Source of the DNA: Thelephora terrestris
Taxonomy: Eukaryota > Basidiomycota > Agaricomycetes > Thelephorales > Thelephoraceae
Length of the DNA stretch: 64,000 bases
Assembly: GCA_015956445.1 (NCBI GenBank)
Contig: WIUZ02000016.1
Span: 892,850-956,849 of the forward strand
Direction of reading: 5' to 3'
Within the stretch, counting starts at the first letter, position 1, and every line of letters starts with the position of its first letter. The position numbers and the translations under genes are program-made. This document shows positions 9,391 to 48,246 of the stretch, one piece after another. The notes under the pieces were generated by a model, which searched no databases, was not told the DNA's origin, and saw only the letters and a program-made list of their open reading frames with translations.

Positions 9391-10194
9391 TCATGTGACC
9401 ACAATGTCTGTGATTAGAGAGACTCCCGCCATGATACGGCAGCGGAAACACCATGTATGGGCATCTGGGGGTGAAAAGAAAGACGCGGTTATTGTTGGTT
9501 GATTCACAAAAATCGAATCGATGGAGTCCAAATTTTCCTCAATCCCACTCGACTGCGAATAGACAGAGCTTGCTTCTGAATGTTGCTTCTTTCGCGCTTC
9601 CGTCGAGATCTTCGAGAAGTATCCGGTGAAATGACAACGTTCATACGAGATGAGGGTAGCCATGGTCGTCTTAAACGACTCTGTACTAGTCTCAAGAGTA
9701 ATGATAGTCTTCTTTGGATCGATCGGAAGCGACGGAATGGCAGATAGGAGAATCGGGTCAAAGGGCGGAAGTGGGAGTGCAGGAAATGCCGGTTCCATGG
9801 GGGGACCACAGAGTCCTCGCTTAATGAGACAGGATATGAAGCTTTGGACCTTTACGGGGAAGGTACGGGTGGGGTGTCAGGAACATGGTATTTTTAAACT
9901 TTTTATAACACACTCTTTCTTCGAACTCTTCTTACCACTTCTTATGTTTCGAATGCTTCACATTCCTTATCCTTCACACCAATCATTCAAAACACACAAA
10001 CGCGCATACATTCACGGCAATACGGAACAACTGGCTATACAATGCTTATACAACGTCCTCAAAAGTCGACTCTATCTACGGCAGGCCTCATGGTCATCAA
10101 GCGTCCATCCCGGAGATCGTAGTGCTGGCCCCTCCTCGCAAGGACCTCCCCGAACATGGCGTCACCATCTTCGGCACTCAGCTGAACGACTAGT

Positions 10195-11800
10195 TCAAGC
10201 CGATAGGAAGAGATGCCTTCGAGCGGACCGATCAGCCTTCCAGATGTCACCGAACTCTGGAACACCTGATCCCACATCTCCATCACCGGGTGACTGCTCG
10301 ACAGCACTATCGATGTAGTCGGCGAGCGACCCTCCGTCTCCCTCGTCACACCCCTGGGTGGGATCCTCTCTTGCGAGTCGTAGCTGGTGGCGAAGCTGGA
10401 TCTCCGACTCGACCTGTCGGTAGGGACGGTGGACTCGATAGCGGAACTCTCGTCCCCTATCTCGACCAGACTGGTCACCATCCGACTCAACTGGACGCGG
10501 GTATGGGTTAGCCGAAGGAGCCATGCGATGAGCAAGGCGGCGTGTAGAGCGTTTACAACGCTGACCCTTGATCACCGGACGTACCTCTATGGCCCTCGGA
10601 ACATCTTCGGCCCGGTCTACTTCCATGACCTCATCCTCGATCTTGACCAGCTGACTGATCGGCTGCAACGGGCAGCGCCGACAGTTCTCCTTGTCGGACT
10701 CGGCCAACGTGGAAGCCGGAGCCGGAGTTGGAACGGGAACCGCGTTCTCGATCGGAGGCGTCGCATAGGATGATGGGTTAGGCGAAGGGAGTACCACCTC
10801 GTCGGCGTACTCCAGCTCAAACGGAACGTCGGCAGTCCCCTGACCGACCAACTTCGGACCCTCCTTGCAGTTGCAGGTCTTATCCTGCAAGGACGCGACC
10901 TGCGCCGTCAACACCGCTACCACGTCTTCGAGTTCTTCCGTCTAGGAAATGTCAGCTTCCATCATTCTAAAGCAATGATGAAAGCGGCATTACCTTTTCA
11001 TCCCTCCTGGCCAGCGCCCCCTTGATGTTGTTGTCCCTGACCTTCAGCCCGGCGATCAACTCTTGATGGTTAGCGACCATCGCCTCCAACGCCTCGTTCG
11101 TTCCCTGCTGGAAGGCGGCCAGAGTCTCCTTCATCAGAAGACCCTCCGCTGACAGACGAAGGACGTCTGCCTTCGCCTCCTTCACCTCGCGCTCCAATCG
11201 TTCAACCTAGGCAGTTTGGTTAGTCGAGAGTCATACTCGAATATCCAAACGAAACACCTACCTTGCTCTCTCCCTCCCGAACGAGCGACCATAACAACGA
11301 GGTGGCGGCAGTGGCATGGCGGACGGCCCGAGGAACGGTTGCCCCGTGCTCCAACAGGTCCTGATCATAGATCCCCCGTTGCAGGGTGTACCAGAGCTCC
11401 TTCTTGATCGGATGCTCCAGTTCCCCGAACCTACCCCTCATTCGGAAGATCACCTTCTCGGCAATCATGGTACGGACCCAGAGCTCATCGTCCCAGGTCA
11501 ATCCCATCAAATGAGGGATCGTCTCCCGGAGACGTTCGGCGTCCACCTCCTGGACGACCTCCAAGATCTAGAAGCCGTTAGCTGGACATCAACGCCCAAA
11601 AGAACGTAACCTCTACCTAGAGGAAGGCGTTAGTGCTAAACACATTAAGCTCTAAGTCTCCCCCATACCTGGTCATCTGTGGTATAGGGAGTCCCAGCTG
11701 CACAGGCGTAGGACTTGCGGGCGGCGACACGACGGTCGATACGGGAGATGGTGGAGATGCCGTTGGCGACTTTGTAGGTGTGGTTGTTGGGGAAAGACAT
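10195..11800 (-). CDS. Antisense coiled-coil protein of LTR-like element
   Basis: A four-exon gene on the minus strand: 11800-11669, 11567-11262, 11206-10994 and 10941-10195. All introns are phase 0 with GT-AG ends, giving 465 residues with no lesion. Exon 1 starts MSFPNNHTYKV. Exon 2 contains WDDELWVRTMIAEKVIFRMR. Exon 3 is a long heptad-rich helix (LERLEREVKEAK-type, coiled coil). Exon 4 starts with another helix and then becomes acidic and basic low complexity with no known domain. A TATA-like CTATAAG lies about 70 bp upstream of the ATG (plus coordinates 11868-11874). I do not recognise the family. Similar layout is seen in the genes at 31236-32496 and 45982-46884. A structural or regulatory role for the element is only inference. 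Confidence 0.7.
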
Positions 11801-12697
11801 GTTTTGGTAAGATGATGGGGAAGTTGCTGGTGTTGCTGATCAAGGATGGCTCCAAGAAGACGTCCTTCTTATAGCCTAGATCGGTGATCCTTCACGTGAC
11901 CTACCTCGACGAACCTCATTGGTCCGGGTCACATCAACTTCCGCCCCTGTACCATCATCGTTGGCTTACTACATCAAGCTGACACCTCGGCCCGCGGGAC
12001 GGCCTTGGAAGAACTTCGTTCCGGAACGCCTAGAACGCGCGCGCACTAAAAATAGGTCTCAAGACCCTGATGACCCCTTTATGACATCACGAACCCCTTT
12101 TACGACCCTTCATGACTTTACGATTACGATCAACCCTGGACCCTGATCACACACATGGACAGTCACATCACAGTCTCCTAACCGGAGGAAGGACTCGCCG
12201 CTATTCGGAAGCATCGCCCTAGGATTCTTCTGGTTAGCCCAGCGCATGTGGAGTAGCCGTTAGCGTGAAACACCGGCGAATCTGTAATCCCTTATGTCCC
12301 ATGAGTCTAGGCCCTCGCTCCTCATGTTCGGACGCACGATAAGGTTGCCACTAGTCCGTGATGCTGTTACCGCCTACAGACAACAAGGGATGCTGCATGG
12401 TCTCTATCTTTGGCCTCTCCAAAGGAAGCATCCAAGAAGATTCTCACCTAGCCCTTGGGTGTGATCCCCAGGTACAAACTTTCATGACCCCATGCCCCTT
12501 TTTCTTTTAGGACTAGTGTTATCTTTACCCCTGTGTTTCATGCGGACATTCGTTATCTTTTATGCAATCCTTCACACGCTAGTAAGGCCCTTTGTCCTTT
12601 ATCTTCCCACGCGTCATATTTGCTCGCTTCCCTTACTTAGCGTTCTCACACTCCTTATCTCCCTTTGTTCGGACTTGATAAGGGTATATTAGGGTAT

Positions 12698-12730
12698 TGA
12701 CGTCATGGCCACTCCTTTAGTATAAGTAGC
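12698..12730 (+). promoter_or_regulatory. CRE-like site and TATA box of LTR-like element
   Basis: A perfect TGACGTCA palindrome (12698-12705) lies 16 bp upstream of TATAAGTA (12721). The block points right, towards the element's end at 13174, opposite to the coiled-coil gene. The other two elements have a TATATATA at 32926 (preceded by a CACGTCAC half-CRE) and a GGTATATAAGG at 47353 in the equivalent place. This is expected for an LTR promoter at the U3/R boundary; activity is inferred. Confidence 0.55.
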
Positions 12731-13733
12731 AACTGTGGCTGTATCGTAGTACCTTAGTTTTGTTACCTCAGGAAATCCTCTGCCCTTCTCAGCCCAGTTG
12801 CAGTTAAGGACAAGTCAGAGTTTCTTGTTTGATCCAAGACATCCCCCATCTGCTCTCCCTCCCGCTCTGCGCATCGGCTGCGCCTCGTAACTATAGAACC
12901 CCAGCGTTCATATTAGAACACCTCGAACGTCCAGTCGATCAACTGGTGGAGTCATCAATCCTGTTGTAGGGATAAACCCTTGCGTGTTAAACCGAAAAAA
13001 GTACGGTTTAGGTTGGGTTTCCCTTTAGGATTTCGACCTGACTTGTAGTGACCTCGGACAACCTACCGGAAGAATAGAGACGTGATCGTTCTCTCACAAG
13101 CTAGTTGGACTAGTGAGTACTCTGCGGAGTCGGCTCAGTGCACTGGTAGTTGTTGGGGTAGAGTGGCCCTGACATGGGGGAACGACGCGAATCGCTGTGT
13201 TCGGAGCTACCTTCTCTCGACCTTTCTTTTTCCTCGTGCGTGAAGGTGAGAGCTTCGTGGGGTGTTCGTGCAATGGTCACGGTCGGTGCTTGTTCCACGC
13301 GACCGAAGACGTCGTTGAGCTTGGGCTCGGGTTTCCGAAGGGGAGGAGAAGCAGCGGTATACGGTGCTTTGTTGGACTTATTTCCCAACATCGTACCAGA
13401 CGAGCGGCCACCTTCGACCGAACGCATCGGAGAGCAGTCCAAAGATTACCTGTAGACATGGAGGTGAGACAAGGTGCAGCAAAAAAGCGATGAAGACTTA
13501 CAGCACCAACAGACCAGAACAGCTTGGGCGGATCGGCGGGGGAGAGGCCTGATGCGCTCGTGGACAAGTTTGTTTAGCCGAAAGGCAGAACAGTGAAGAA
13601 AACCGATGGTGCACCAGCCAGAGGTTAGAAAGAAAAAAGTTGGGGGTGCTGCTGGCGATTGATCAAGGGAGAGGTTATGAGCGGTGTTTAGAGTGATGTG
13701 CGTCCCATGTTCAATTCCGTTGAGTTGCCGACT

Positions 13734-23338: not shown

Positions 23339-23478
23339 TCCATCTAGCGAAGAGTCAACTGGCTATCAAGGAGGTTCTCCCAAGACGAACCACGTACCAA
23401 TTGAAGGAGGCTTGATATCGGTCTGAGTGTAAGAAGTGCCGGCTGGGACCCCCCGGCCATCGAAAAACACCGAAAACA

Positions 23479-23802: not shown

Positions 23803-24681
23803 CGTCATCAGCAAACCATGGAAACCCTGTTAGCCTTGTGGCGCTGGTGAGAGAGGCGCTCCCTGGATAAGGGGTCATGGTGCATTGTAACCCGTCGTTG
23901 TTTCCTCTGGAGGCGTTGTAACAAATTATAACGCGTCACAAGCTTGCTAGGTGGCAATTGTATTCCTGTAATGCCTCCGTCCAGGTCTTATAATTCAGTA
24001 TAGCATCTCGTATCACACATACAGGACAATGACAATATGCCGTACAATGCCTCACATTACCCTAGATGGCAATGGTAACTAGGATACACAGAACATCTGC
24101 ATTATCTACGAATACAAGCGGACGCCAGCCCTGTGTAATACGATCTTAGGCTCTGCGCGGTTCGAGTCCAAGCTCCGCTACTCGCTCACAGGGAGCGCCC
24201 GAGTTCTAAGCTTCGAACGGACAAGTCGAGGCCACATCCGAAAACTTCGCGATGACCTTGTGTTTATTTTTGAGTACATAGTTCTCCCAATGTATCTACA
24301 ACTCCGCTGTCTTATTTACATTGCACTGAGGGATCTGTAATTCTGGAGAGGCGGCACCATCCCCCTGATCAGGAGATCCCAGGATAGTTGTTGTTGGTGA
24401 CCGAAGCGACAACCATCAGGTTCCCATCGTCGTGGAACGGACGGCCGTTCGTTGAGACGTATCACAGCGTTCGCAAAGATACCTCTGATGGACAACAGGT
24501 GGCGGACGAAAGCGGTGGTTCCCTCGGAAATGAGCCACATGGGACCCGTCCAATAATGAAGTCGCACAGATGGACGAGTTGATAAATCGGTTTCGGCGTA
24601 GGCACGCTGACCGAGTCATAATGGAGGTTTTGGTGCGGGGGATAGGAGACCTTGAACTGTTTCTTCTGATAATCAGGGTTG
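23803..24681. other. No supported gene
   Basis: No convincing coding region. An isolated Pol III B-box-like GGTTCGAGTCC lies at 24159-24169, but no tRNA fold or A box accompanies it. The last 380 bases (minus strand) are the left flank of the LTR-like element that starts at 24682. Collapsing its GGTTG duplication leaves a minus frame open for about 60 codons across the junction, with no recognised motif. Confidence 0.45.
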
Positions 24682-25109
24682 TGTGATGATTTCGCCGTTT
24701 ACCCCCTTTATTCCCTTTATTTAACGCCTCATCACCACTAAGTCAGTAGGTGCCCTGCCCTAAACACGGCGGTAAACTGTTTATTATGCCATATGCCCTA
24801 TGCCTAACGATTCAAAGTCCAATACGTGGAACGTGCTACTAGTCAAGATACCCCAGAAGACCCGAGGTATAATACGTGAACATGTACCGGCGAACCTTCA
24901 TACAAAGATTCCCCCTACCTGGCCCTCCGTTGCCCCTGGACGACTAGTAGATATTCAGGCTACTGACAACAAGGGATGTATTAATAAGTGTCGCGCGTTG
25001 ACCTCTCGCAGAAGTCAACCGGCTTATTAATCTGACCCTTGGATTGGACTTACGAAAACCATTATGCTTAATGACATCATGCGCAATAGACAAGAAAGAA
25101 GATTAATTC

Positions 25110-25466
25110 TGTTGAGCAGGTAGAGTACAATACTATACTACTACATGGATACTCTAATCCTTACCTGAAGGGGAGAGGCTTATAGTTGCTAGTGGGGGAG
25201 AGAGAGAGAGAGAAGCGATTGATTCATCTATCTACACATGAGGGGTATATATATCTATCTACTCTATTGTTGTCACATCTATACAGTGTGACTGATGCAG
25301 GGTCCGTGCGGCGGCTTAAGGCACGCGTGCGTCATACCGATCGATCGGATCACTGATGTGATACCGTCCCTTCGGGTCGCTTTGATCAGCGCTCTCCGGC
25401 ATCGGCTCTCGCTTGAAGCGGTGGAGCCGGTTGACCCGTTGCCGGGCATAGACCTCCAGTTCAACA
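25110..25466 (-). repeat. 3' LTR of copia element
   Basis: A 357-bp terminal repeat, 3' with respect to the minus-strand element. A purine tract (AAGGGGGAG on the minus strand, 25467-25475) touches its inner edge and is the likely polypurine tract that primes plus-strand synthesis. Confidence 0.95.
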
Positions 25467-25542
25467 CTCCCCCTTACTAAGTACAGCTCCCTGTATAACT
25501 TCATTGGTGGGAACTGGTCTGTAGTAAGTTGGAGGTATGTGC

Positions 25543-28500
25543 TCAGAAGAATTCGAGGCCAAGGGCATCTCTGAATTTTCTAAGTTTGACGACTCCAAGG
25601 TTTTTTGTCAGGAGATCCGCAGGATTGTCATCCCCAGGAATGAAATACACAACCACTCGTCCGTCATTGATGACTTCCCGGATGTAGTGGTAGCGGATGT
25701 CGATATGCTTCGACCTTTTTTCAGTAACCGGGTTGGAGGCGATAAAGATCGAGCCTTGGTTATCTCCACAGATCAGGATGGCTTTTAGGTTATAGCCGAG
25801 CTCCCCCAGAAGGGTATGCATCCAGACTACCTGGCGGCTGCAATCAGAGAGCGCCATGTATTCAGCCTCAGTGGACGATAAGGCAATGGTTTTTTGTGCC
25901 CTTGAGGTCCAAGAGATGAGTCCTTTTGCCATCCGGACAAAGTATCCACTTTGGGATCGTCTCTGAGTGGGATCTGAGGCCCAGTCTGAGTCGGTACAAG
26001 CTGAGATACCTTCCCGTGAATCTCCGTCGTAAGTTAACCGGTATCTTGAGGTCCCGATTAGGTAGCGGCAGATATACAGCGCTTTTTCGACGTGCTCTTT
26101 TGACGGGTTTGCAGCATATTGCGCAAGTTTGGTGACCGCGAAGGCGATATCAGGTCGGGTACCCAGCATTAGGTACAGTAAGGAACCGATTATGGTCTGG
26201 AACCTGCTTCGTCTTTCCGGGCATGCTACCTCTGTTGATGGAGTCGGTACATACCCGGCTGGAAGAGGAGTTGGAGCAACTTTTGCATTTTGCATCCCAC
26301 ATCGCTCGAGGACTGTCTGGAGGTAGGCGCATTGATCTATAGAAATCTTGCTGCCATGTCGAGTGATCCTCATGCGGAGGAAATCGGTTAGGTCTCCTAG
26401 ATCCCTAGTTTCCCATATCTTCATGAACTCCCCCTTGAGCTGCTCCGTAAGCGCTGTGTGGGGTCCGGTAAAAATGGCATCGTCTACATAGATTAACGCA
26501 ATTACGAATTTTCCATCTTTATCCTGGTAAATGAAGATCCCGGCATCTGAGCTCAAGGATTTGAATCCGAGCTTTTCCATGGACCGTTTCAGGGCTCGCC
26601 ACCACGCGAGCCCGGCTTGTTTCAGTCCGTAGAGGGCACGCTTTAAGCGGAGAACATGGGTCTCTTTTCCTGGGGCTACGAATCCCTCTGGTTGTTCCAT
26701 GTAGATCTCCTCGTCGAGTTCGCCGTATAGGTATGCATTTCGAACGTCAAGTCCTTTAAGGACCCATCCTCCGAGGGCGGCCATTGCGAATATTAGGCAC
26801 ACTGTCTCGAATCGGACAACAGGAGAGAACACAGCATCGTAGTCCATTCCCTCAACCTGTGAGAAGCCTTTCGCTACTAAGCGGGCTTTCTTGCGACCAT
26901 CTGGTTTCTGGTCGAATACCCAGCGGTTTTTAATAACCTTGCGGCCTCGGGGGCGCTCTACCAGGTCGTATACGTTACGCTTGCGAAGAGCTTCCAACTC
27001 TTCGTTGCAAGCTGTCCTCCATTCCTCGAGCTCAGCCTGTGGTAGTGTGGCGATGTCTCGGTATTTCCATTCTTTTGGAGTTTTTCCGTCGGCAGTTGGT
27101 GAGACAGCCTTCGAAATTAAGAGGTTTTGGAGTTCTACTCCCCCTTCCCGGCATAGCCTAGCCAGAAGGGCATCCGTGTCTTCTTCAGGGGTGGTAAATC
27201 CGGATGGTTCAACGGATTTCTCGACCTCATCCTCGGACTCTGATGCCTCTTCAATCCTTCCCTCAGCGGAGGATTCTCTCTCAGGAAGATGCTGCGTGCT
27301 AGGTCCGGGAACTGGTACTGCTCCTGAACTTCGCCCACGCCTAGGTGCTACGGAGAAATCTCCGACAACCTTCTTCCAATCCTTCATACGCCGGGTAGAT
27401 TTTAATATTTCTACCGGATGTTTACTTCCGTAAACATTACCAGGCTTGGTCGGTACTTTCCGCTCACGCTGAGGCCTCCGAGCCTTGTCTGGTGACGGAG
27501 GCATAATCGTTGGCGGAGCGGGTGGCGCATCCTCAGGGCCGGAATCAGAGCTAGAGCTGGGGGTAGGCGATCTCGGCGGCTCCAAACTGGGCGCTCTAGA
27601 TTGCACCGGCGTTTGCGGCCGTGGTGCGGGCTCATTAGTACGTTCCTTGCCTTTTGAGGAAGGCCTGGGGGTAGTTTTGGGACGCGCAGAGGGTGTTGTG
27701 TCATCCTCCTCTTGTCCTCCTGGAAGGGGACACTGGCAGTCACCGTCTCTATGACAGTGATGACTGGGTAAGGGTGGCGCAGCAGATTGCAGCCGTGTGT
27801 TGCGCCGTGTACTGGTAGTTGGGCACTTTGGAAAGTGCAACTCATCGAAGGTGGCTTGTGCGGTGGAGAAGATAATGTTATTTGGTCCGCGCATGAAGAT
27901 CCATCCTTTTCCTCCCGGGTGGGTACCTAGGTAGGTCATCAACTCCGACCGGGGTGCGAGTTTATTTACCCGTACTTCTTCCGGGATGAAGACGTATGCT
28001 CCGCAACCGAGGACCCGAAGATGATCTATCGATGGCTTACTCCCATTCAATAGCTGGAATGGGGTCTGCCAGTTTAGGCGACGGTTCGGCGTTCGATTGT
28101 AAACGTGAGTTGCGTGGTCAATGGCGAATTCCCACCAGGATTGAGGGAGGCAAGCCTGCAATCTCATGGATTCTGCCTTATCCATCAGTGTTCGAATGAT
28201 CCTTTCCGCGCGGCCATTTTGCTGGTGTGCATGCGGGATAGATTGGAGGATCTCAATTCCCTTTTCCTTGAGCATCGTTGTAAATGTTAGGGACGTGTAT
28301 TCCCCCCCGGCATCGGACATCCATCAGCGTACTCTCTTCTGGTACTTGGTCTCAACCATAGCCAGGAAGTGCCTGGTAGCCACAAGTGCAGCATCTTTAG
28401 TGCGCAAATTCATGGTCCAGGCGTGTGAGGTATAGTCGTCATAGAAGACGATTGAGTACTTGTATTTGCGATAGGACTCAATGGGGAAGGTCTTCAGGTC

Positions 28501-30483
28501 CGAGTGGATCAGCTCGAAGGGGGCAGTCGCTCTGGTGCTGGAAGGGGGAAAGGTTTTATTGGTCATCTTTCCTTGCGCGCATCCAGTGCAGAGGTGCTCT
28601 CTCGGGATTTCGACATGAGGAAAATCCTTGACATGTTTCCCGGCCTTTTGGATCACTTCTTTAGAGGGGTGAGCCAGTCGGCGGTGTATGATCTCAAAAT
28701 CAGCATCGTATATGGTTTCAATTTTGGCAGCAGTAAGTTGCGCCCCGAGGAGAGTTCTGATGATGTAAATACTATCATCCTCGGTTCGAGGGTGGAAGGT
28801 AAGAAACTCGGTTTCTTCTTCGTAGAGCGAGATTTCGCGAGCACTCCCCCTCGAGAAGAGTCCGCTTTTGAGGAACTGGCCAAGAGATAATAGCCTATGG
28901 GATATTTCAGGAACAAAATAGACGGGGTTTAGCCTAACAGCCTTTTCGTCTACGTAGAGGATCACTGTTCCTTTACCGATGATTGTTGTGAAAGTAGTCG
29001 CAGTCCTTAGAGGGATGGGCTCGATTGCCTCGTATTCAACGAAATCATTCATATCGAAGGTAAAGTGCCGGGATGCACCAGAGTCGAGCATCCACACGGC
29101 TTCAGTTTCACTCAGGGCGGACAAGGTCAAACAAGTGTATTCAGAAGCTATTACTGAAGAATTATGTTTATCTTCAGCTGCTGTGGAGTCGTCAGTATCG
29201 TTACTCAACACTTGAACACTTGTTCCATACCTTCCGCCAGACGGACCGGCAACCGACACGGGGGATCCAACAACCATCTCATCACCCGACCATCCCAAGC
29301 TCACTTCATCCTCGCTTGGCGGGGTACGCGCCTTTTTGCGAGGTCGAGGATCGACCGTCTGCTCGCAGGAGCGCTCCAGTCGTTTGAGGGTCTCAATCGT
29401 GGGCGTGACGCCTAGTCGTGCTGAGAGATCTCTTGCCTTCTGAACGGAGGGGTAGAAGGAAGGGGTCCCTGCACCTTCACGATGGACCGGGAGGGAGCGT
29501 ATGGGAAAGGCTGCCATAGAGGCGAAGCCGTAGTCGGTGACCGACATACCGGAGCCAGACGCAACTGGAGGTTGAGGAGGGACGGGAGAGGGTATGGGGG
29601 GCTCCTCAGACTGTTGTGCCTGTTGTTGGAACCTTCCTCGGCCTCCTCTGGTTCCTCGGCGGTTACGTCCGCGTCCGCCTTGGCCCTGGGGTTGATCCCC
29701 GCTGTACTGCTGCTGCTGTTGGAAATTGGGGTTTCCAGGAGTGCGCTGTACATTGGACAGCCTATGCGCCTGCTGTCTGCCTTTGCCGTTGGACGTCTGC
29801 TCCCATGCGAGGAGGATTGACCGCCGAAGACCATCCACATCAAGCTTGGTCAGATCCTCCGTCTGGCAAATTGCCTGTGGAATGTTATTGTATGACGGAG
29901 GAAGCTTCGACATGAGCATCATCGCTTTGATGAAAGGGGGGATGACGGCGTCTTCCCCGTTGCTCTCAAGTCGGCCGATATGGGAAGCAAACTTATCTAA
30001 GGCGGGCGTGGGGTCTTGTCCCTCGAGGATCTTGACCTCCATCGCATGTTTGAACTCCAGGTAGATTCCGATGATCCCTGGCTTTCCATACTCCTTCTCG
30101 ATTGCTTTGAGAAGGGCGGCAGCGTTGGTTTCAGCTCGGTACTTGTACTGGATATCCGGGACAAGGCGCAGGAGGATGTTGCCGAGGGCTTTGTCATTTG
30201 CCTCAGCCCATGCGTCTACTTCGTCTTGGTTATCAGTGCCTTCCTGTGCCTGAGTCAATAGGTTGTTCTCGGCATCATAGGTGGCTTCAGTTTTCGGCCA
30301 TACCTCGAGGGTAGGTTCCTTTTTCTGGATCGTCCTCCATTGTCCTTGCGACATCAGGTATGAGCGCATTGGTCCAGCCCACTGTTGGTAGTTTGGGCCG
30401 GAGAGGACGGGGACGAGGGAGGTGAGTTGAGAAGACATTTGTTTTTGGGAGGTAGAAGTCCTGCGACCAATAACAAGTTTCAT
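25543..30483 (-). pseudogene. Ty1/copia Gag-Pol polyprotein with one in-frame TGA
   Basis: One reading frame of about 1645 codons is interrupted only by a TGA at 28324-28326, leaving 719- and 925-codon parts. Order: Gag/UBN2-like region (LSGPNYQQWAGPMRSYL), RGG-rich stretch without an obvious zinc knuckle, protease (MLDSGASRHF), pre-integrase HHCC (HPSKEV...CTGCAQGKM), integrase with the first Asp in FELIHSDLK, the stop, then the second Asp in SDAGGEYTS and Glu in NGRAERIIR, reverse transcriptase (LDVRNAYLYG, ALIYVDDAIF) and RNase H (ACTDSDWASD, LSSTEAEYMAL). The codon before the stop and those after it fit the integrase core, so a CGA-to-TGA change is the simplest explanation. Everything else looks intact. 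Confidence 0.93.
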
Positions 30484-30841
30484 CAGTTATCGTACGCTTT
30501 TTTGTGCCAGAAGCAAGTGAAAGGGGAAGAAGCAGTCTTTCCTTTCAGGGATTAATTTAGTGAGAAGCTTTATCGCATATTGCCTCATTCCACACCGTCG
30601 GCAGATGTTAATTGACTACCCTCCCCTGTGGGGTCTACGAATGTGTGTTGTGCTCAGCTTTGGCTAGTCACTGTTTCATCCCCTCTTGGGGTTTTGACTT
30701 TTTTTGTTCTAAGTCCCCTTCCTACGCAGTGGATAGCGCAGTGGCAGCCATTAAGGCGCACTAAGGTAAGATTAGAGCCTGTTCACAGCGCAGCCACAGA
30801 GGCGCAGCTTGGAACACAGGGCATAGCCCGGGCTCATAACC
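30484..30841 (-). other. Copia leader with half-tRNA primer-binding site
   Basis: The untranslated leader lies between the 5' LTR and the gag ATG. Directly inside the LTR the minus strand reads GGTTATGAGCCC (30841-30830), complementary to the anticodon-arm part GGGCUCAUAACC of initiator tRNA-Met. This fits priming by a cleaved half-tRNA, as known for Drosophila copia. On the plus strand, 30800-30841 also resembles the 5' half of an initiator tRNA-Met, with GGCGCAGC ahead of GGGCTCATAACC. Confidence 0.65.
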
Positions 30842-31200
30842 TGTTGAGCAGGTAGAGTACAATACTATACTACTACATGGATACTCTAATCCTTACCTGA
30901 AGGGGAGAGGCTTATAGTTGCTAGTGGGGGAGAGAGAGAGAGAGAGAAGCGATTGATTCATCTATCTACACATGAGGGGTATATATATCTATCTACTCTA
31001 TTGTTGTCACATCTATACAGTGTGACTGATGCAGGGTCCGTGCAGCGGCTTAAGGCACGCGTGCGTCATACCGATCGATCGGATCACTGATGTGATACCG
31101 TCCCTTCGGGTCGCTTTGATCAGCGCTCTCCGGCATCGGCTCTCGCTTGAAGCGGTGGAGCCGGTTGACCCGTTGCCGGGCATAGACCTCCAGTTCAACA
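30842..31200 (-). repeat. 5' LTR of copia element
   Basis: A 359-bp terminal repeat, nearly identical to 25110-25466. It contains a TATA-type run (TATATATA, near 30978) and a GA microsatellite that is two bases longer than in the partner LTR. Confidence 0.95.
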
Positions 31201-31235
31201 AATTCCTTGGAAGCCCAATAGTACAAAAGAGTTAT

Positions 31236-32496
31236 TTAATCAATATCTCTGCAAATCCTTTGTACTACTTCCAAGGCCGATCTCACCAACTCCTCATTCA
31301 ACCAATTCTGCTCCCTAATCTCGTTCGGGTCCACATCCGACAGGTCATCATAATCTGGAAGCTCTGTATCAGAATTCGGTTCGCTATCAGGAACGAACTC
31401 GGCATACGGATCATACTCCAGGGCAGGCCATTGACGACGACTACCCCAAGGAGTAGAAACGAACTCAGGACGAGGAGTGTCCCTACGGACGACTCCTACG
31501 TTCTGGTAGAACTCGTCGCTCCCAATCTCAATGACCTCATCATCAACGGGAACCAACCTGTTCTCGTAACGGACCAACAGACGAGCGGGCGGCGACTCGG
31601 CCCGATTAGGAATTATCGGCAACCCGGCCCGATGCGGAACTTCCAACTCCTCTTCCTCGACTTGGACCTCCGGCTCGTTACACCTCCTCTGGAGATCCCG
31701 GACCTCTCCGGTCAACTCCGAGATACGACGAGTAAGGCGAACCTAAAGGAATAGGGTTAGAAGATAACAAAAACCTTCAACCCCTACCCCTTACCTTGTC
31801 GTCCTCCAATTCTCCGGTCTTAGTAACCAGAGCCCGGACCAAGTCTTTGAGAGTAGTCACCTCTCCCTAAAAAGGAGATGTTGGGTTAGAAAAGTCAATT
31901 ACCTCCCACCCCACATTTACCTTCAACAAATCAATGTTGGCGCCTTGCCGAACCACGCTATCTTCTTGTCCATGAATGACCCCTTGCATATCTTCCTTCC
32001 AATTCTCCAAGGCTTCTATCTCTTCGCGACGACCATCAATACGTTCGTTGACATGAGCCACTTCATCCATTAACATGGACCCAACGTTCCCCGTATGGAG
32101 AACGCTGGCCTCCAACATGGAGTTGAAGGTCTCGTTGGACTCTGTCACGAACTCGACACCCCTATTGAGGAGTTCGCTCGCATATGGGTTGGTCTCAATG
32201 CGCGCCAACTTGCGCCGAGATACCCTTCGAGCAGCCTGGAGAAAGTCCCTGAAACCTAAAAGGAGTTAGTTCGCTTTCTTAAATCAGAATGCGCAACCAG
32301 ACCCCCCACCTAGATCAGAGAACCCTTCATTAGGGTCAGCGGTGGCAGTCCGGTCCATAACAGCTCCCAAAGTGGGATAAGGACGGGAAGGATCCCGACG
32401 AGCATGGGAGAAGCGGTCGATATTGTAGTTGTTCTCCTGAACAGGAGAGTAAGAGGAAGAGCGACGGGTGGGATTGCGAGTAGAGGCACGAGGCAT
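31236..32496 (-). CDS. Antisense coiled-coil protein of second LTR-like element
   Basis: Four exons on the minus strand, 32496-32310, 32255-31921, 31866-31795 and 31742-31236, with GT-AG introns in phases 1, 0 and 0, give 366 residues without a lesion. Exon 1 starts MPRASTRNPTRRSSSYS. Exon 2 has a long helical segment (NERIDGRREEIEALENWKED) likely to form a coiled coil. Exon 4 starts with another heptad-like helix and becomes acidic (PDSEPNSDTELPDYDDL). A TATATA at 32557-32562 lies about 60 bp upstream of the ATG. It has the same plan as the gene at 10195-11800 (short first exon, helical middle, small third exon, acidic last exon) with little sequence identity visible by eye. Function unknown. 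Confidence 0.7.
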
Positions 32497-32899
32497 GTTG
32501 GCAGTGTGTAACAAAGGTGGGTTTGTTGGAAGACCAGTCATCCAACCCCCTTTGGTTATATACCAAATGCCACGCCCCTTTCACGACTCAGGAGTTGAGT
32601 CATCTTTTCTATTGTTTACTGCGCATGACCCACATGACATCATATGCCCCTATCTTTAGTCATATGCTCCCCTTTTGCCATTGGCTGTTAGTCAGCCATA
32701 TCCACATTCCTTCCGAACATTCCCATGATACGTCATGCTTTGTAACTGCTTTGTAATGCTCTCAAATTGCTATTGGCCACCACACTTTCGTTTATCAGCT
32801 GATAATTTGTAGCATTAGTCACCACGTAACGCACAGACCATGCAGTGCTGTGCACGGACCATGCTTGTCTGTGTTTGTATCATTAGTGTAGTTACATGT

Positions 32900-32940
32900 C
32901 ACTGTCACGTCACAAATCTAAGTAGTATATATACTCAGAG
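32900..32940 (+). promoter_or_regulatory. TATA box and half-CRE of second LTR-like element
   Basis: TATATATA (32926-32934) is preceded by CACGTCAC about 20 bp upstream. It faces the right end of the element, 255 bp away, and is divergent from the coiled-coil gene promoter at 32557. This is the position expected for the sense promoter of an LTR. Confidence 0.5.
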
Positions 32941-33199
32941 TAGTTTAGCCTGTACTCCTTAGATTTGTTATCATCAGACTCTCCGTGACCTCTACTGCTG
33001 TGTGCTTAGAGCAAGAGTGCCTGAAGACCCTTGTCTCCTTCTTTCTCCTCTTCTCCATCTAAGTCTGTGAAGAGACTTCTGATATCCCTGGGTTTGCAAC
33101 AGGGTTATAACTGTGTGTTTGACCCCTGCGTGTGATAGGTTTGGATAACAAGAGTGTTATTGAACTGTAGAGGTCGCGTCGGCCTGACAGGTTGACGTC

Positions 33200-36600: not shown

Positions 36601-36979
36601 TACCAAAAAAAGAATTTTTCTAAAAAGGAAATTATATGTTAGAAAATTCGGAAAAATGCCAGAAAAATCCTAAAAAATTCCCACAGATCTAGAAAGTGCC
36701 AAAAAATGCAAATAAATCCCACAAATATCCAAATAAATTGTTTTTCTGGCTGGAAAAATCAGGAAAAATCCGAAATAATTTCAAAAAAATTCAGAATATA
36801 GATAAATATTTTATAAAGATTATTTCAATTTTTTTTGTTCATTAAATAGCCTAAAATTTTGATGTTATTTTTTGCCCAAAAAATTCATAAAATTCCCAGA
36901 AAAATAAATAAAAATTGGAAAATACAAATAAATCTATAATATTCATTATATCATACAGTACAGAACAGGTTGTAGTCAT

Positions 36980-37480
36980 AAACTAGCCCTAAACCTAGTC
37001 CTGGACCTAACCTAACCTAAACCTAAACCTAACCTAGCACCAAACCTAACCTAGCACCAAACCTAAACCTAAACCTGCCCTAAACCTTAATCCAACACTA
37101 AACCTAAACCTGACCCTAAACCTGCCCAAAACCTAAACTTAACACTAAACTTAACCTAACCTCAACCTAACAACTTGAACTAACCTCAACCTAACCCTAA
37201 CCTAAACCTAACCCATCCCAAACCTAACCTACCCTAATCCTAGCCTGCCCTAAACCTAACCTAACCTAACTTAACCTAAACCTAAACCTAACCCACCCTA
37301 AACCTAACCTGCCCTAAACCTAACCTGCCCTAAACCTAACCTGCCCTAAACCTAACCTGCCCTAAACCTAACCTGCCCTAAACCTAACCTGCCCTAAACC
37401 TAACCTGCCCTAAACCTAACCTAACCTAACCTGACCTAAACCTAAACCTAAACCTAAACCCAACCTGCTCTAAACCTAAC
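36980..37480. repeat. Telomere-like CCTAAACC/CCTAACC array, left arm
   Basis: About 500 bp of degenerate CCTAA-based repeats (CCTAACC, CCTAAACC, and a 15-bp unit CCTAACCTGCCCTAAA repeated about eight times at 37,310-37,410). On the other strand these are TTAGG and TTTAGGG types rather than a clean TTAGGG. The mirrored array at 38,640-39,140 has the opposite orientation, so the two G-rich strands point away from the centre of the element. Confidence 0.85.
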
Positions 37481-38639
37481 CCAATTCTAACCTCACCTAG
37501 TCCTACCCTGACCTGGCCTAGTTTGGCCTTATCTTATCTTATCTATCTTATCCTATCTCACCCACCCTAAACCTAACCTAATCCAGCCTAGCCTAACCTG
37601 ACATAGTCCACTTAACCCAGTCCACCACAGATCACTCAACCTAACCTAAAGTGGTCCACCTGACCTAGCCTGATGCAACTTGACTTGATCTTATCTAATC
37701 AGCTGTCATCTTATCTAACCTCAATCTAAATACCCTATCTAATCAACATCTAACCAACCTCACCTGGCTCACCAGCACATGACTGGGTTACAGGAACACA
37801 CTGTGAGCTGTACCATCCCATATCCTGTATCCAACCGTCACTCAAGCACATCAACTGTGGTGGAGCTACAAGTCAGTGGACCTATAAGCCCACAGACCCA
37901 CACCCACAGACTGCTCACTCAGTAGAGACATCTGTTATTCAACCTCACCCACGTACCACCCTCACCCTGTGTTCTGTGCCAGACTGCAACTTCACCACAA
38001 CTTAAGTTCAGCCACCTGGCTGAAACCATGTATTCTCAGGTCTACAAATCCATGGATGCATAACTTGTAGCCTATATCAGTCTGGCTTGCAGGTTCAGCC
38101 AGGTGGTTGGACTTGAGATGTGGTGAAGTTGCAGTCTGGCACAGAACACACAGGGTGAGGGTGGTATGTGGGCGAGATTGGATAACAGATGTCACTACTG
38201 AGTGAGCAGTCTGTGGGTGTGGGTCTGTGGGCTTATAGGTCCACTGACTTGTAGCTCCACCACAGTTGATGTGCTTGAGTGACGGTTGGATACAGGATAT
38301 GGGATGGTACAGCTCACAGTGTGTTCCTGTAACCCAGTCATGTGCTGGTGAGCCAGGTGAGGTTGGTTAGATGTTGATTAGATAGGGTATTTAGATTGAG
38401 GTTAGATAAGATGACAGCTGATTAGATAAGATCAAGTCAAGTTGCATCAGGCTAGGTCAGGTGGACCACTTTAGGTTAGGTTGAGTGATCTGTGGTGGAC
38501 TGGGTTAAGTGGACTATGTCAGGTTAGGCTAGGCTGGATTAGGTTAGGTTTAGGGTGGGTGAGATAGGATAAGATAGATAAGATAAGATAAGGCCAAACT
38601 AGGCCAGGTCAGGGTAGGACTAGGTGAGGTTAGAATTGG

Positions 38640-39140
38640 GTTAGGTTTAGAGCAGGTTGGGTTTAGGTTTAGGTTTAGGTTTAGGTCAGGTTAGGTTAGG
38701 TTAGGTTTAGGGCAGGTTAGGTTTAGGGCAGGTTAGGTTTAGGGCAGGTTAGGTTTAGGGCAGGTTAGGTTTAGGGCAGGTTAGGTTTAGGGCAGGTTAG
38801 GTTTAGGGCAGGTTAGGTTTAGGGTGGGTTAGGTTTAGGTTTAGGTTAAGTTAGGTTAGGTTAGGTTTAGGGCAGGCTAGGATTAGGGTAGGTTAGGTTT
38901 GGGATGGGTTAGGTTTAGGTTAGGGTTAGGTTGAGGTTAGTTCAAGTTGTTAGGTTGAGGTTAGGTTAAGTTTAGTGTTAAGTTTAGGTTTTGGGCAGGT
39001 TTAGGGTCAGGTTTAGGTTTAGTGTTGGATTAAGGTTTAGGGCAGGTTTAGGTTTAGGTTTGGTGCTAGGTTAGGTTTGGTGCTAGGTTAGGTTTAGGTT
39101 TAGGTTAGGTTAGGTCCAGGACTAGGTTTAGGGCTAGTTT
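38640..39140. repeat. Telomere-like TTAGG/TTTAGGG array, right arm
   Basis: This is the reverse-complement partner of the array at 36,980-37,480, with the same 15-bp subunit (TTTAGGGCAGGTTAGG) repeated about eight times. Its order 5'-CCCTAA...TTAGGG-3' relative to the left array is the opposite of what a head-to-head telomere fusion would leave. Confidence 0.85.
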
Positions 39141-40679
39141 ATGACTACAACCTGTTCTGTACTGTATGATATAATGAATATTATAGATTTATTTGTATTT
39201 TCCAATTTTTATTTATTTTTCTGGGAATTTTATGAATTTTTTGGGCAAAAAATAACATCAAAATTTTAGGCTATTTAATGAACAAAAAAATTGAAATAAT
39301 CTTTATAAAATATTTATCTATATTCTGAATTTTTTTGAAATTATTTCGGATTTTTCCTGATTTTTCCAGCCAGAAAAACAATTTATTTGGATATTTGTGG
39401 GATTTATTTGCATTTTTTGGCACTTTCTAGATCTGTGGGAATTTTTTAGGATTTTTCTGGCATTTTTCCGAATTTTCTAACATATAATTTCCTTTTTAGA
39501 AAAATTCTTTTTTTGGTAATTGTTTCCAGTACCATTTTTGAGTCGCTTATGTAAGCCATCAAAATTGCCTATTTTGGAAAGTCTTTCCTAAAAAAGAAAT
39601 TTCCTGTTTGGGAAATCTCATTTCGAGTTGCTTATGTAAGCAATCAAAATTTCCTTTTTTGGTAACCCATCAAATATTTCCTAAAAAGGAATTTCCTTTT
39701 TGGGAAAGAACCCTCCAAAAGCATTTTTGAGACACTTATGTAAGCCATCAAAACTTTCCTTTTTTGGTCAGTCGCATGACCTGATTACATAAGCAACACT
39801 CACTTTTTCGGTCACATGATCTGCTTATGTCAGCTATCAAAATTTCCCAAAAAGGAAATTCAATGCCAAAATCATTTTGAGTTGCTTATGTAAGCCATCA
39901 AAAATTTCCTTTTTTGGTCAGTCACATGACTTGCTTACATAATCCTCTCTCACTCATACATCACATGACCAGCTTATGTTGGCCATCAAAATATCTCCAT
40001 TTGGAATATTCCCTCACAACACCTCTCCATCATTGCTTATATAAGCCATAAAAACTTCCCCTTTTGGAATTCCCTTTCCTGGCCACGTCACATGACCTTC
40101 TCACACAATCCATCACGGACCCACCAATGCCCCTGTCATATACCCCCATTAGGTCCAAATATATCCTGATTAGGCCCCCAATGCTACTTGACCACCCCTT
40201 TGTGCCTCCCACAGATTTAACGTCAAAACCCCGTCTGCCAACATCATCTGGTCACATGACCCCCTCACACGACCAATTCCGTTCCTACTGATGCTCCTGT
40301 TATGTAATCCCATCAGGCCCAAATATGTCCCGATTAGGCCCCAAACGCTACTTGACCACCCCTTTGTGCTTCCCACACATTTATTGTCAAATCCTTCCCA
40401 CTGATTAACTGTCAAAAAATGGCACCCTTGCCACACTTTTTACATAAATGGTTGTCACCACAGCTGCAATCTGATCACCGGATTTATTCGAAGCTCGACT
40501 CAACCGTCTCTTTCCACCTGTGACTCTTTGGAAAGATGCAGGCATTCATGCATACGCTTGCAACCTGAGGGTTGGCGACTTGTCATCAAAAATCTGAAGG
40601 TGCATCACACCGGATCAACCACAGGGTACAGGTACTATATCCGAGATGGTTTCATTCTTGACCGCTGACGTTTTCTCTC

Positions 40680-41240: not shown

Positions 41241-41699
41241 GTTGTCAAGACCAAACTTTAGGACGCTATGAAGTTGGTCGCCTGTGTGGTTCGGGAAGCT
41301 ACTTTGCGCTTAATTTGGAACCTTGAAGCCGCAGTCAGCAGAGCCCAGCTCTGCAACAAAGCTTTGTCATGCGGGCAACACAGATCAACGACAACACCCC
41401 TTCCACAGGCGGAGTACCTCAATTGTATTTATATTGCACCCGTTCAGCCTCTCGCGCCGGGAACTGTGTTTGGTGCGATTCAGTGCGACTGGAACCCAAA
41501 AGGAACGAAATCGGCGCCACCACCACCCCATTGTAGTCGCCAACGAGGCCCCCTTGGTCTCACGTACTCTCCTGAGTGGAACCATGGCTTTTCGTCTTGT
41601 GCACCGGGTTGGCAAGTTCCAGGGCTTCACATCCCATCATGCCAACCATTCAGAGAATGTCCCGTGCGGACTTGACCTCGCGGATCTGCACTGACTCGT

Positions 41700-42985: not shown

Positions 42986-43674
42986 AGGTGACTGCAAACA
43001 TGGTCACATTTGACTGTCAACCAAAATGTACTACAAGACAAGTAGTACATCTCTCAATAGTGTTTTCTTTGTTGGGGAGGGTGTGAGCTGTACAGCTTAG
43101 CTGTCCCAAGTGTGGGAAATATATTAGAAATAGATATATAGATCATTGGTAGACTAGATGATTGCTAGCTTTTTATCTCTTTACCACAACCCAGCAATCT
43201 ATATGGATTCTGGTTCACTTTGAGAGTTGAGAAGCTCTGCCATGTCCAACACGGCTTACAGAGCTCCTGGGCATTGCACAACCCTGGACCCACTTTCTCT
43301 GGCAGTGTCTAGACTTCCTCAGTCTTCCCTTCCTCCTGATTACCCCCATACAGTCAGTTAGCTCAGCATGATCCAGCATCAAGCTGCATTTAGCATGCCT
43401 CCCAGATGTCCTAGTTAACTGGGTGTTAGACCATCTGTTTCAACAGATGGGATCAGTAACTATCCCATAGATAGGAATTCATACCTCAGCTCTAACTGTG
43501 CACTGGCCAAATCTATGTGTAGGTTGTTCTTTGATACTATACAATTTGGGTAAAGCTTGGAGCCATAGATAGACGGTTCATCATGATGCTGGAAAACCTT
43601 GAAATGGGACCCAAATTTTGATAAATGATATATATCACAAATCTTTCATTGCCTGACACTAATTCTCACTCTTG
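42986..43674. other. No supported gene
   Basis: AT-rich sequence between the EPL1 relic and the 3' end of the OrsD-type gene. No coding or repeat structure was recognised apart from short TA-rich runs (TATATAGATC near 43130). Confidence 0.5.
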
Positions 43675-45817: not shown

Positions 45818-45981
45818 CTAGGCCAAGGCAAAAGAGGACCATATCAGTGCCAAATTTTCGATATTTTTGCTGGGCATGTCACGAACACGTGACATATTAT
45901 CTAAGATCACGCAGATAATTCAAGACATTGGTCTTATTCGAGGTAATAAAAGGACAAAGGCAACCACTAGATATTACAAAA

Positions 45982-46884
45982 CTAAACAAGAACAAAAGGA
46001 TCTACGTCACAAGAACAGGCCTGAGGATACGCGCAACGATGAGCGAAGTGATGAGGATTATGAACACTCTGAGGACAGTAAGAATACACCCGAGTTACCG
46101 GGTCCTGCCAACACTCCCTGCACCCTAACACGTCATGAGACAAGCTCTCATACATCTCTCGCTTCACGTCCGACAAGGCCTCGCTCACTAATGCGAACCC
46201 ATACCGGTCTTGGAGACCCGCCACTTCCACCTTCAACTTCATCCGTACTTGACGTGACTTGTCGGAGGGACGACAACGTGACCAGAACGAGTCATCGGAT
46301 TCTTGCAGGTCTTCTTCCTCTGGGACCTCTCCACCATCTGACGAACTGGGACAGGACTCCAGGGAGGGGACGGAGGGAGAGGAACGCCCTGATCCTGGCG
46401 GTGGCGAAGGGACGACTGGGGACTTAGAAGGGGGATCGGTGCAATAGGCTCCGTGACATTGGTGTCCGAAATGTCTGAAGAGAGCCGCCTGGAAAGGTCC
46501 CCAATGTTCCAAAGCAAAGTGAGAGAAATCCTCGTTCAAACTGTTCATGATGACGTACATGAGATCCACTCGCTTCTCCAACTTCGCAATCCTATCTTCC
46601 CTCTCCCTCTCCATCCTGTCCAATAGAAGAACGGCTCCAGGATGCCTAGCTTCCGGTTGAGGCCTAGAAGCCCTGGGATCCTCGAAACCAGCTTGTTCCC
46701 AGAAGTCGGCAGGGGCATTGTGGGCGGTCAAGAAGTCCACCGCTACCTGATTGTCATGGGCGATGTTGGCGGGGGAGTCGTACAAGTGTTGCTCCACGTT
46801 GTAGGGAGCATCCGTCTCGAAGGACGGGGTAAAGGGGGTGGCGGCAACGTTGAGCACGGCGTTGTTGGCAACAAAGGCAGACAT
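45982..46884 (-). CDS. Antisense protein of third LTR-like element
   Basis: A single-exon 300-codon gene starts MSAFVANNAVLNVAATPF. It has a charged helix MEREREDRIAKLEKRVDLMYVI (coiled coil), a Ser/Pro-rich then acidic middle (PSSSDGGEVPEEEDLQES), a second helix with SEALSDVKREMYESL, and a Cys/His-rich end (CRECWQDP... HNPHHFAHRCAYPQACSCD) that could bind metal. A TATATA lies about 95 bp upstream of the ATG. The plan (Met-rich start, coiled coil, acidic C-terminal half) matches the genes in the other two elements, but here there are no introns. Function unknown; the frame is intact. Confidence 0.65.
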   Translation of the reverse strand: MSAFVANNAVLNVAATPFTPSFETDAPYNVEQHLYDSPANIAHDNQVAVDFLTAHNAPADFWEQAGFEDPRASRPQPEARHPGAVLLLDRMEREREDRIAKLEKRVDLMYVIMNSLNEDFSHFALEHWGPFQAALFRHFGHQCHGAYCTDPPSKSPVVPSPPPGSGRSSPSVPSLESCPSSSDGGEVPEEEDLQESDDSFWSRCRPSDKSRQVRMKLKVEVAGLQDRYGFALVSEALSDVKREMYESLSHDVLGCRECWQDPVTRVYSYCPQSVHNPHHFAHRCAYPQACSCDVDPFVLV

Positions 46885-47095
46885 AGTAAACAAAGATGTT
46901 TGAGAGGGGAGAGTAGTAGTGGTGATTGTGGGAAAGGAAAAGAGACGATGAGAGGAAAGGACCAATAATCCCCCTGGATTATATACAACCGACTCAATAG
47001 GAAACCAAAAGGGGAAGACAATGAATCATCATCCATTTAAGTCCTAATTAGGATAAACGAACCCTTAACCCCAAATCGCGATCCCATCAAACCCC

Positions 47096-47188
47096 GAGAA
47101 ATCCCCACCGATCATGAGAAATCCCCATTGCGCTTCTATTGCTACCATGAAACACGAGAAATCCCCATCGATCAAGAGAAATCCCCAT
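47096..47188. promoter_or_regulatory. Four copies of GAGAAATCCCCA between divergent TATA boxes
   Basis: GAGAAATCCCCAY occurs at 47096, 47116, 47156 and 47176 with 20, 40 and 20 bp spacing, each followed by a CGATCA-like or similar short sequence. The cluster lies between the minus TATA (46979) and the plus TATA (47353), so it could be a shared upstream activating region. A 20-bp phase corresponds to about two helical turns. Confidence 0.6.
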
Positions 47189-47352
47189 CAGACCCTGAAA
47201 TGACTCATCCGCTATTGTTCCCCTACTTCGTACTCGATACCGGTTGTTCTAAGTCTCACTTCTCTGACTCATTTACCCTACCCTAAAGTACGCACAGACC
47301 ATGTTGACCCCTGTTTGGCTCGTTGTAGAATTATGACTCCTGTAGAGAACTG

Positions 47353-48129
47353 GGTATATAAGGAAGAGCGTTCGCTCCTTTCTTTCCCCATTCTCAATCT
47401 CTTCTGTACTCCTCTACCCACAAACTTGAATAAATCAGTAAGCTGAGGAATTCTCCTCCGTCTTACTACTTCTGACTCATTCTAGCAGGAATCCTCCTGC
47501 CAGTGTATGTTCAGTGCCCCAAACCCCTTCCCTTCTAACAGTCCAGTCCAACGCCCCGTCATCCCTGACGCCAGGAGATCTATCTGGGAGTATAAACTTA
47601 TCAGAAGTCTCCAAGTAACCGAACAGCCGGTTTACTTACTCATTTTCCTTACTATCGCCCCTTCGCGGCTCTTGACGCCGGAGTCACCACTCCTCCTTTT
47701 CTCTTAGGCGCCGATCATCAGTTCCTTTGGAACTCCGACTTTACTGAGAGCGTCCTAGCGACCGTCTACTTCAGTATAAGCCCCGCTTTCTACTTCCCTA
47801 ATCCACGCGTTCACCTTACCACTAACATCCACACCCATTCCCCTGCTATCATCGTTCTTTGGTGGGAAGTACCAGCTGAATTACCTTATTCAGTCATAGA
47901 ATACCTCGTCAACTTCGAACGTCTTAGCGACCAAGACTTCGACCCGTTCGTACAAACGCTACATCAATTCTGCCAGGACTACCATTCGCCAGTGCACCCC
48001 TATCAGACGGAGTCACCTCTCTCTCTTGATATTCCTCCGCCTCTCACCTCTACTCCCGGTACTCCTTTCAAGCCTCGACCCGACACCCCTCACCCATCCG
48101 CTAATCCTCTAGCGCCCCACAAACAGTAA
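47353..48129 (+). pseudogene. Plus-strand gene of LTR-like element with a frame slip
   Basis: A TATA box (GGTATATAAGG, 47353) precedes an ATG at 47507. The first frame gives MFSAPNPFPSNSPVQRPVIP up to about codon 35. From about 47603 a different frame is open for some 175 codons to the TAA at 48127-48129, 20 bp from the element's right end (TAGLLTHFPYYRPFAALDAG... VIEYLVNFERLSDQDFDPF... HKQ). A single-base slip near 47600, a programmed frameshift or an unrecognised intron could join them. No family recognised. It lies where the R-U5 or start of an internal region would be expected. The promoter and ATG are clear; the protein is not. Confidence 0.5.
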
Positions 48130-48246
48130 GCAGGCCCACAACCCTGACAGGGCACCCTCTTGCAATGGCCTAAACCAGCTGGTAGAATGACCCTGGCTAG
48201 GAGGTTTTAGTTAAGACAACTTGTGATCAATGTGGAACAAACTCAC

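Follow-up and report, generated by a model that had tools for sequence, protein, structure and literature searches.

A 64,000-nucleotide stretch of contig WIUZ02000016.1 from the agaricomycete fungus Thelephora terrestris, of the Thelephorales (positions 892,850–956,849 of the forward strand; hereafter, the window) contains three mobile elements, E1, E2 and E3 (Table 1), each carrying a protein gene on its minus strand. A preliminary description based on the sequence had read them as one family of solo long terminal repeats (LTRs) of 2.3–3.3 kb whose unique 3′ (U3) region encodes an antisense protein. The three elements lie exactly where it placed them, each between perfect 5-bp target-site duplications (TSDs), and E2 is indeed split by a nested copia element with a TSD of its own. 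All three end with CCTGACA on the right, and their left ends are TGTCAGG, TGTGATG and TGTCACG in E1, E2 and E3, respectively. The minus-strand genes are also present as described, with four introns in E1, three in E2 and a single exon in E3, and they end 105–458 bp from the LTR edge. A TATA box lies ∼70 (E1), 60 (E2) and 96 bp (E3) upstream of the start codon, in accordance with the 60–100 bp given earlier, and a plus-strand TATA box, read from the sequence, is found at 12721, ∼32926 and 47355, at the distances from the right end that had been indicated.

Table 1. Positions of E1–E3, their genes and related features in the window (TATA box counts include the window's own copies)
Feature	Position	Strand	Remarks
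Older E1-like LTR remnant	7556–8161	+	First bases are those of E1; similarity to the antisense gene up to 59%; decayed
E1, solo LTR of a chromodomain Ty3/gypsy element	9875–13174	+	3300 bp; TSD TGGGG (9870–9874, 13175–13179)
E1 antisense gene	10059–11800	−	Exons 11800–11669, 11567–11262, 11206–10994, 10941–10585, 10490–10062; stop codon TGA 10061–10059
TATA box of the E1 antisense gene	11867–11874	−	Kept in 38/38 copies
TATA box of the E1 sense (genomic RNA) promoter	12721–12725	+	Read from the sequence
Inferred start of the repeat (R) region of E1	12755–12766	+	12 bases that pair with the primer site beside the 5′ LTR in full-length copies
E2, left part	24682–25109	+	TSD GGTTG (24677–24681, 33190–33194)
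copia element nested within E2, not part of E2	25110–31200	−	TSD AATTC (25105–25109, 31201–31205)
E2, right part	31206–33189	+	E2 is ∼2.41 kb without the insert
E2 antisense gene	31236–32496	−	366 amino acids; exons 32496–32310, 32255–31921, 31866–31795, 31742–31236
TATA box of the E2 antisense gene	32555–32562	−	Kept in 13/13 copies
E2 stretch TAGATTTGTTAT	32960–32971	+	Resembles the E1 self-primer in its sequence and its spacing from the TATA box (34 bases)
E3	45877–48149	+	2273 bp; TSD GGGCA (45872–45876, 48150–48154)
E3 antisense gene	45982–46884	−	One exon; 300 codons in the window copy; stop at codon 245–247 in the remaining 7 of the 8 copies fetched
TATA box of the E3 antisense gene	46979–46985	−	Kept in 8/8 copies
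E3 sense gene	47507–48129	+	Intronless; 207 amino acids from the first ATG in open copies; ends 20 bp before the right end

A search of the T. terrestris assembly (40.6 Mb, 60 contigs) with E1, in which 40 of 636 candidates were scored, yielded 33 near-complete copies among 55 matches. Three direct pairs of E1 LTRs were fetched, the two members of which differ at 0/3300, 0/3301 and 1/3307 sites and are separated by 5.1–6.0 kb. Their ends are TG…CA, the antisense gene is present at both ends of each pair, and the pairs are bounded by outer 5-bp duplications (ATCAC, GTGCA and CTGCC). The internal regions encode gag, protease and pol; in the two copies scanned with Pfam (L026 and L027), pol contains the RVT_1, RNase H, H2C2 and rve domains followed by a C-terminal chromodomain. 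The solo-LTR interpretation is thus established for E1, the ends of which enclose gag-pol. The possibility that E1 is a DNA transposon was ruled out by the gypsy-type pol located between direct LTR pairs.

The E1 pol is present in eight copies in the assembly (98–100% identity), and a search for the junction between the LTR and the primer site identified exactly eight places, which correspond one-for-one to the same insertions. The sequence GAGTAACAAAACTACC directly follows the E1 5′ LTR, and 12 of its bases are complementary to the inferred R start, which follows the sense TATA box by ∼34 bases. Judged from these positions, the primer-site arrangement is a self-priming layout, that of Tf1-type elements. 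With gag, protease, reverse transcriptase, RNase H, an integrase with a C-terminal chromodomain, TG…CA ends, 5-bp TSDs and this layout, E1 has the same organization as fungal chromoviruses. Self-priming as such is treated in PMC2864245. The assembly contains 410 E1 right ends, that is, ∼50 per full-length copy, and gag-pol loss must therefore be fast in T. terrestris.

A second, sister family, which is also a chromovirus according to its pol match and junction, is represented by three pol copies that are 64% identical to the E1 pol. In the one copy sampled (C12:1331233), the LTRs are ∼2.9 kb long and contain an antisense gene, and ATATCAAAG can pair with CTTTGATAT as a self-primer. The antisense translation of this copy matches E1-type proteins at ∼33% over ∼220 residues (E ∼1e-20) and the annotated fusion protein P0026 at 83–90%. 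Because a homologous gene is found in the LTRs of both families, the antisense gene probably predates the split of the two chromoviruses, and by these comparisons it is changing faster than pol.

In copies of all three elements, the duplications are 5 bp long. Six of the 33 E1 copies belong to the three pairs with outer duplications; the 27 unpaired copies include 25 with a perfect TSD, one with a single mismatch and one with none (26/27 with a 5-bp duplication). Where E1 has been inserted into E1, the duplication is directly visible in the match coordinates. Perfect TSDs and TG…CA ends were found in all of the copies that align end to end for E2 (12/12) and E3 (8/8, including the window copy and its C22 duplicate), and these copies are all lone units. 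The C22 segment (G000:C22:114787–131732) carries both E2 and E3 with ∼100% identity and with the same spacing as at the C8 end (window ∼31–48 kb), and this identity and spacing suggest that it is either a haplotig or a duplicate of subtelomeric origin. In addition, five E1 copies (L053–L057) differ in a ∼230-bp U3 stretch upstream of the sense promoter (E1 ∼2287–2494), which serves as a subfamily marker.

The antisense genes are structurally well preserved. In E1 and E2, the start codons, stop codons and splice acceptors are kept in all of the copies examined, and the splice donors in all but one E1 copy; 37 of the 38 E1 copies are free of internal stops, and all 13 E2 copies are intact. In the window copy of E3, the antisense frame is altered near the C-terminus. 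Compared with the near-identical C22 copy, it shows single-base length differences in both of its genes, the C22 copy being 2 bases longer and otherwise identical; because of this identity, the differences may represent assembly errors or allelic damage. Annotated homologues exist for E1 (e.g. P0007, 481 amino acids) and E2 (P0071/P0072). All 70 listed matches of the E1 protein (scoring covered the 7995 candidates with the most words in common) and all 73 listed matches of the E2 protein are hypothetical proteins of T. terrestris. Of the 44 listed matches of the E3 protein, 21 bear that species name, the other 23 being from metagenomes or other sources. Several annotated proteins (P0057, P0062, P0073, P0141 and P0143) fuse genes of neighbouring elements, for example, the E3 antisense gene with that of E1 or E2, and are likely annotation artefacts of nested insertions.

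E3 carries a second gene on its sense strand, whose frame is open in seven of the eight copies but broken in that of the window. A sense-strand three-base rhythm is evident in the right part of the element (.057/.021/.350 in one analysis window). The ratio of non-synonymous to synonymous substitution rates (ω) of this gene is 0.12 in seven distinct copies, calculated for the portion that remains open in the window, versus 2.6 and 4.5 in the wrong frames. An apparent intron in this gene proved to be the one-base length difference of the window copy.

We examined the antisense frames in 59 copies (38 of E1, 13 of E2 and 8 of E3), taken from among the best-scoring matches. Divergence at codon positions 1/2/3 is.048/.040/.159 in E1,.038/.017/.202 in E2 and.056/.040/.176 in E3. 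After near-duplicates were dropped (35, 13 and 7 distinct copies; the first 600 bases only for E3, before the frame change), a counting method gave ω values of 0.24, 0.16 and 0.26 in the gene frame and of 1.4–4.4 in the non-complementary control frames. The complementary frame that shares the third positions of the gene gave 0.25–0.37, as expected, and contains 6–16 stops in the reference copies. Both exon indels in E1 and E2 (2/2) are multiples of three, compared with 6 of 99 outside the exons. Since the ω of pol is 0.035 (three copies), the antisense proteins are less constrained than pol, yet clearly constrained. Their third positions exceed the mean divergence both of the E1 and E2 introns (.10–.11) and of the noncoding LTR (.034–.16), with one 100-bp noncoding stretch of E1 reaching.216; much of the noncoding LTR is therefore constrained as well, or the copies are recombinant mosaics. 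By these substitution patterns, the antisense frames of E1–E3 demonstrably evolve as protein genes, and the earlier suggestion that the proteins matter to the element is substantiated by strong constraint at the protein level and by frames conserved among copies.

These data bear on two alternative explanations. The first is that what counts is the antisense RNA itself, acting for instance to trigger silencing or as a decoy, with the frame being incidental. The genomic RNA and an antisense transcript would overlap in the 3′ U3, and noncoding antisense RNAs have been described for other retroelements (PMC7264820); however, a function of the RNA alone would lead one to expect neither the third-position excess and low ω nor the frame-keeping exon indels (E1 and E2) and conserved splice sites, and we regard this explanation as very unlikely. 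The second is that the frames are spurious or are ordinary host genes captured within a repeat, in line with which the proteins belong to no known family above the cut-off. An incidental open reading frame (ORF) is ruled out by the wrong-frame ω controls. The indel pattern, the recurrence of the gene in a second chromovirus family and the confinement of the listed E1 and E2 matches to T. terrestris (with the above limit on the E1 candidates scored) also speak against this explanation, which is extremely unlikely.

The insertions themselves are young, with 1 mismatch in 230 TSD base positions (46 duplications). The copies are divergent, with median differences of 7.6% (E1), 6.8% (E2) and 11.7% (E3). 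The ω of variants shared among copies is.19/.08/.22 (E1/E2/E3) versus.34/.31/.29 for singletons, and second-position singletons amount to ∼0.3–0.4% per site and copy (52 over 479 codons in 35 copies; 20 over 367 codons in 13 copies). Because the insertions are young and the copies divergent, constraint seems to have acted mostly in the transmitted lineages and not in the solo copies. This favours a protein that the element needs and that works in cis, or preferentially so, over a gene kept by the host. Another conceivable scenario is that the protein acts in trans after the loss of the element, so that the genes of hundreds of solo LTRs provide a host-resident dose of repressor, an element-encoded immunity kept by selection. 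The intact frames noted above, with one E1 copy that lost a splice donor, and the location of 32 of the 38 E1 copies outside the fetched pairs would fit this scenario. However, youth alone accounts for the intactness, singletons are less constrained than shared variants, and constraint seems to have acted mainly before insertion; we therefore consider a repressor of this kind distinctly unlikely.

The antisense proteins of E1–E3 match no Pfam or NCBIfam family above the cut-off, and several of the weak matches are to coiled-coil families. No mutual homology was detected by hhalign (probabilities of 1.1, 0.8 and 1.6%), a weak test with such shallow profiles; thus, a single homologous antisense family is not supported, and a short LV-I-DEV-E motif common to E1 and E2 was not significant. 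The same plan without detectable homology points to a recurring design and not to one family. Accordingly, the plan of the preliminary description held, and its single family gives way to three or more sequence families. In the AlphaFold model of the E2 protein, one long helix spans residues 105–220, with block confidence of 61–89 from residue 121 and mostly low confidence elsewhere, and the E3 protein shows helices of mostly low confidence; with mean pLDDT (predicted local distance difference test) values of 49.9 and 50.6, the E2 and E3 models are too uncertain for a fold search. A sequence search of solved structures with the E1 and E3 proteins gave best E values of 0.4 for E1 and 0.006 for E3 (a designed protein). 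The E2 protein has a basic start and is strongly acidic at residues 301–350, and the E1 and E3 proteins also contain acidic stretches. By analogy, the proteins may tentatively be viewed as coiled-coil regulators of the element; a role in structure or packaging is about equally conceivable.

Taken together, E1–E3 are likely solo LTRs of Ty3/gypsy elements of the chromovirus type, in which an expanded U3 accommodates an entire antisense transcription unit, with a TATA promoter of its own, start and stop codons and, in E1 and E2, small spliceosomal introns. Transcription would start from the antisense TATA box, and reverse transcription would copy U3 to both ends, so that a full-length element carries the gene twice. 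Recombination between the LTRs would then rapidly delete gag-pol and leave one gene-bearing LTR. We propose that the introns survive passage through RNA because they are reverse-complemented in the genomic RNA and hence are no splice substrates; the intronless sense gene of E3 fits this logic. The product may be a coiled-coil protein that oligomerizes, bears an acidic segment and regulates how the element is transcribed or replicated; its position and logic would then parallel those of the antisense regulators of retroviruses.

Several observations weigh against this interpretation, most of them concerning E2 and E3. The assembly contains 217 E2 and 314 E3 right ends (reversed-pattern controls, 0), and the junction rule, limited to exact matches, identified no full-length copy of either in the assembly (0 and 0), the E3 query being a guessed primer position with the R starts aligned by eye. 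The rate of E1 (8/410) predicts 4.2 and 6.1 full-length copies, which makes their lack notable (Poisson chance ∼0.014 and 0.002). A purine tract followed by the left end occurs at two (E2) and three (E3) places, close to the chance expectations of 0.85 and 1.2 (for eight random purines). A list search for LTR pairs, covering the first 100 places of each element, likewise gave none around gag-pol, and three candidate E2/E3 stretches with a spacing of ∼7.5 kb contain no ORF of >168 amino acids, one of them being full of nested E2 units. Furthermore, a second gene in the R-U5 part of E3 (U5, unique 5′ region) is unusual for an LTR. In E3, two of three exon indels are not multiples of three, which reflects the frame change of the window reference and the differing C-terminal ends. 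Decayed copies are under-sampled in the selection analysis, and the regulator role is an analogy, given that no family match exceeds the cut-off.

The lack of full-length copies could mean that, instead of being LTRs, E2 and E3 are mobile units complete in themselves, the former with one gene and the latter with two divergent genes, which spread alone using the integrase of E1-like elements. The absence of full-length copies against 217 and 314 right ends, despite the youth indicated by the perfect TSDs (12/12 and 8/8), the constraint on their genes and the divergent gene pair of E3 would be consistent with such units. However, both elements share the TG…CCTGACA ends and 5-bp TSDs of the proven E1 LTRs, E2 retains a stretch resembling the E1 self-primer, and E1 itself has ∼50 right ends per full-length copy, which attests to fast gag-pol loss. 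In addition, we know of no route by which a lone LTR-like unit without a primer site and purine tract could be retrotransposed. We therefore consider self-contained units unlikely; for E2 and E3, solo LTRs with an antisense gene in U3 remain the best reading, an unproved one, with both elements probably derived from families that lost gag-pol only recently in the strain sequenced. A further-reaching, doubtful idea is that the LTR itself is the unit of selection, a portable cassette of one or two genes spread by the hundreds, with gag-pol nearly or wholly dispensable for each copy, E2 and E3 either propagating alone or shedding gag-pol almost immediately.

Compared with fungal chromoviruses, E1 and its sister family differ in LTRs of 2.9–3.3 kb that contain an antisense gene; the LTRs of the spikemoss element SM-Tcn1 are 440 bp (PMC2864245) and those of the fungal element crapaud 339–443 bp (PMC10787394). 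Among plant Ty3/gypsy elements, Grande, RIRE2, Retand and PvRetro13 carry a conserved antisense gene, with its own promoter in Grande (PMC7264820, PMC11963269). In Grande, RIRE2 and Retand, the gene is located between pol and the 3′ LTR (PMC7264820, PMC11963269) and would therefore be lost together with the internal region, whereas the T. terrestris gene lies inside the LTR, is present at both ends and is kept in solo LTRs. Reviews call the function of the plant antisense genes unknown (PMC7264820). The TRP28 domain of Retand (PF04195) had no Pfam match in the E1–E3 antisense proteins at E ≤ 0.1.

Among retroviruses, HBZ of human T-cell leukaemia virus type 1 (HTLV-1) and APH-2 of HTLV-2 are antisense genes with an LTR-associated promoter that encode nuclear proteins (PMC11963269, PMC7264820, PMC5237517), and retroviral antisense genes are driven from the 3′ LTR (PMC5237517, PMC10186651). 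The T. terrestris genes are likewise antisense protein genes with an LTR-associated promoter, but they lie wholly within U3 and their host belongs to another kingdom. No Pfam match to the basic leucine zipper (bZIP) was obtained for the E1–E3 antisense proteins at E ≤ 0.1, and a long helix is predicted for E2. HBZ is a bZIP protein. The superantigen of mouse mammary tumour virus is a whole accessory gene in the U3 of the LTR and is therefore present at both ends, in the sense orientation; the T. terrestris gene is likewise located in U3, but the protein is unrelated and the orientation opposite.

Literature searches that covered few subscription journals turned up no published account of a fungal LTR with a gene inside it, and the available portions of three fungal studies (PMC3248453, PMC2864245 and PMC10787394) mention no gene within an LTR; a figure in PMC2864245 carries the label 'add. 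ORF'. T. terrestris itself appears in PMC7550596. The LTR design with an antisense gene, found in four LTR families of one fungus and tested for constraint in three, is real and unusual.

LTRs are usually regarded as regulatory sequences, and solo LTRs as mere remnants. Because the T. terrestris LTRs hold constrained protein genes, LTR–LTR recombination leaves a gene behind. The 40.6-Mb genome contains 941 right ends of this kind (410 + 217 + 314), not all of which need be complete LTRs. These elements thus offer a testable case for the role of antisense genes in LTR retroelements, and they carry a warning for annotation, in that many 'hypothetical proteins' of T. terrestris are LTR genes.

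The window also contains two features outside E1–E3. Region 3026–7449 carries ORFs of 656 and 693 amino acids that, by eye from their translations, resemble a Helitron-type replication/helicase gene. Two inverted arrays of CCTAA/TTAGG-like units, many of them 16 bases apart, are located at 36960–39160, with ∼1 kb between the arrays.

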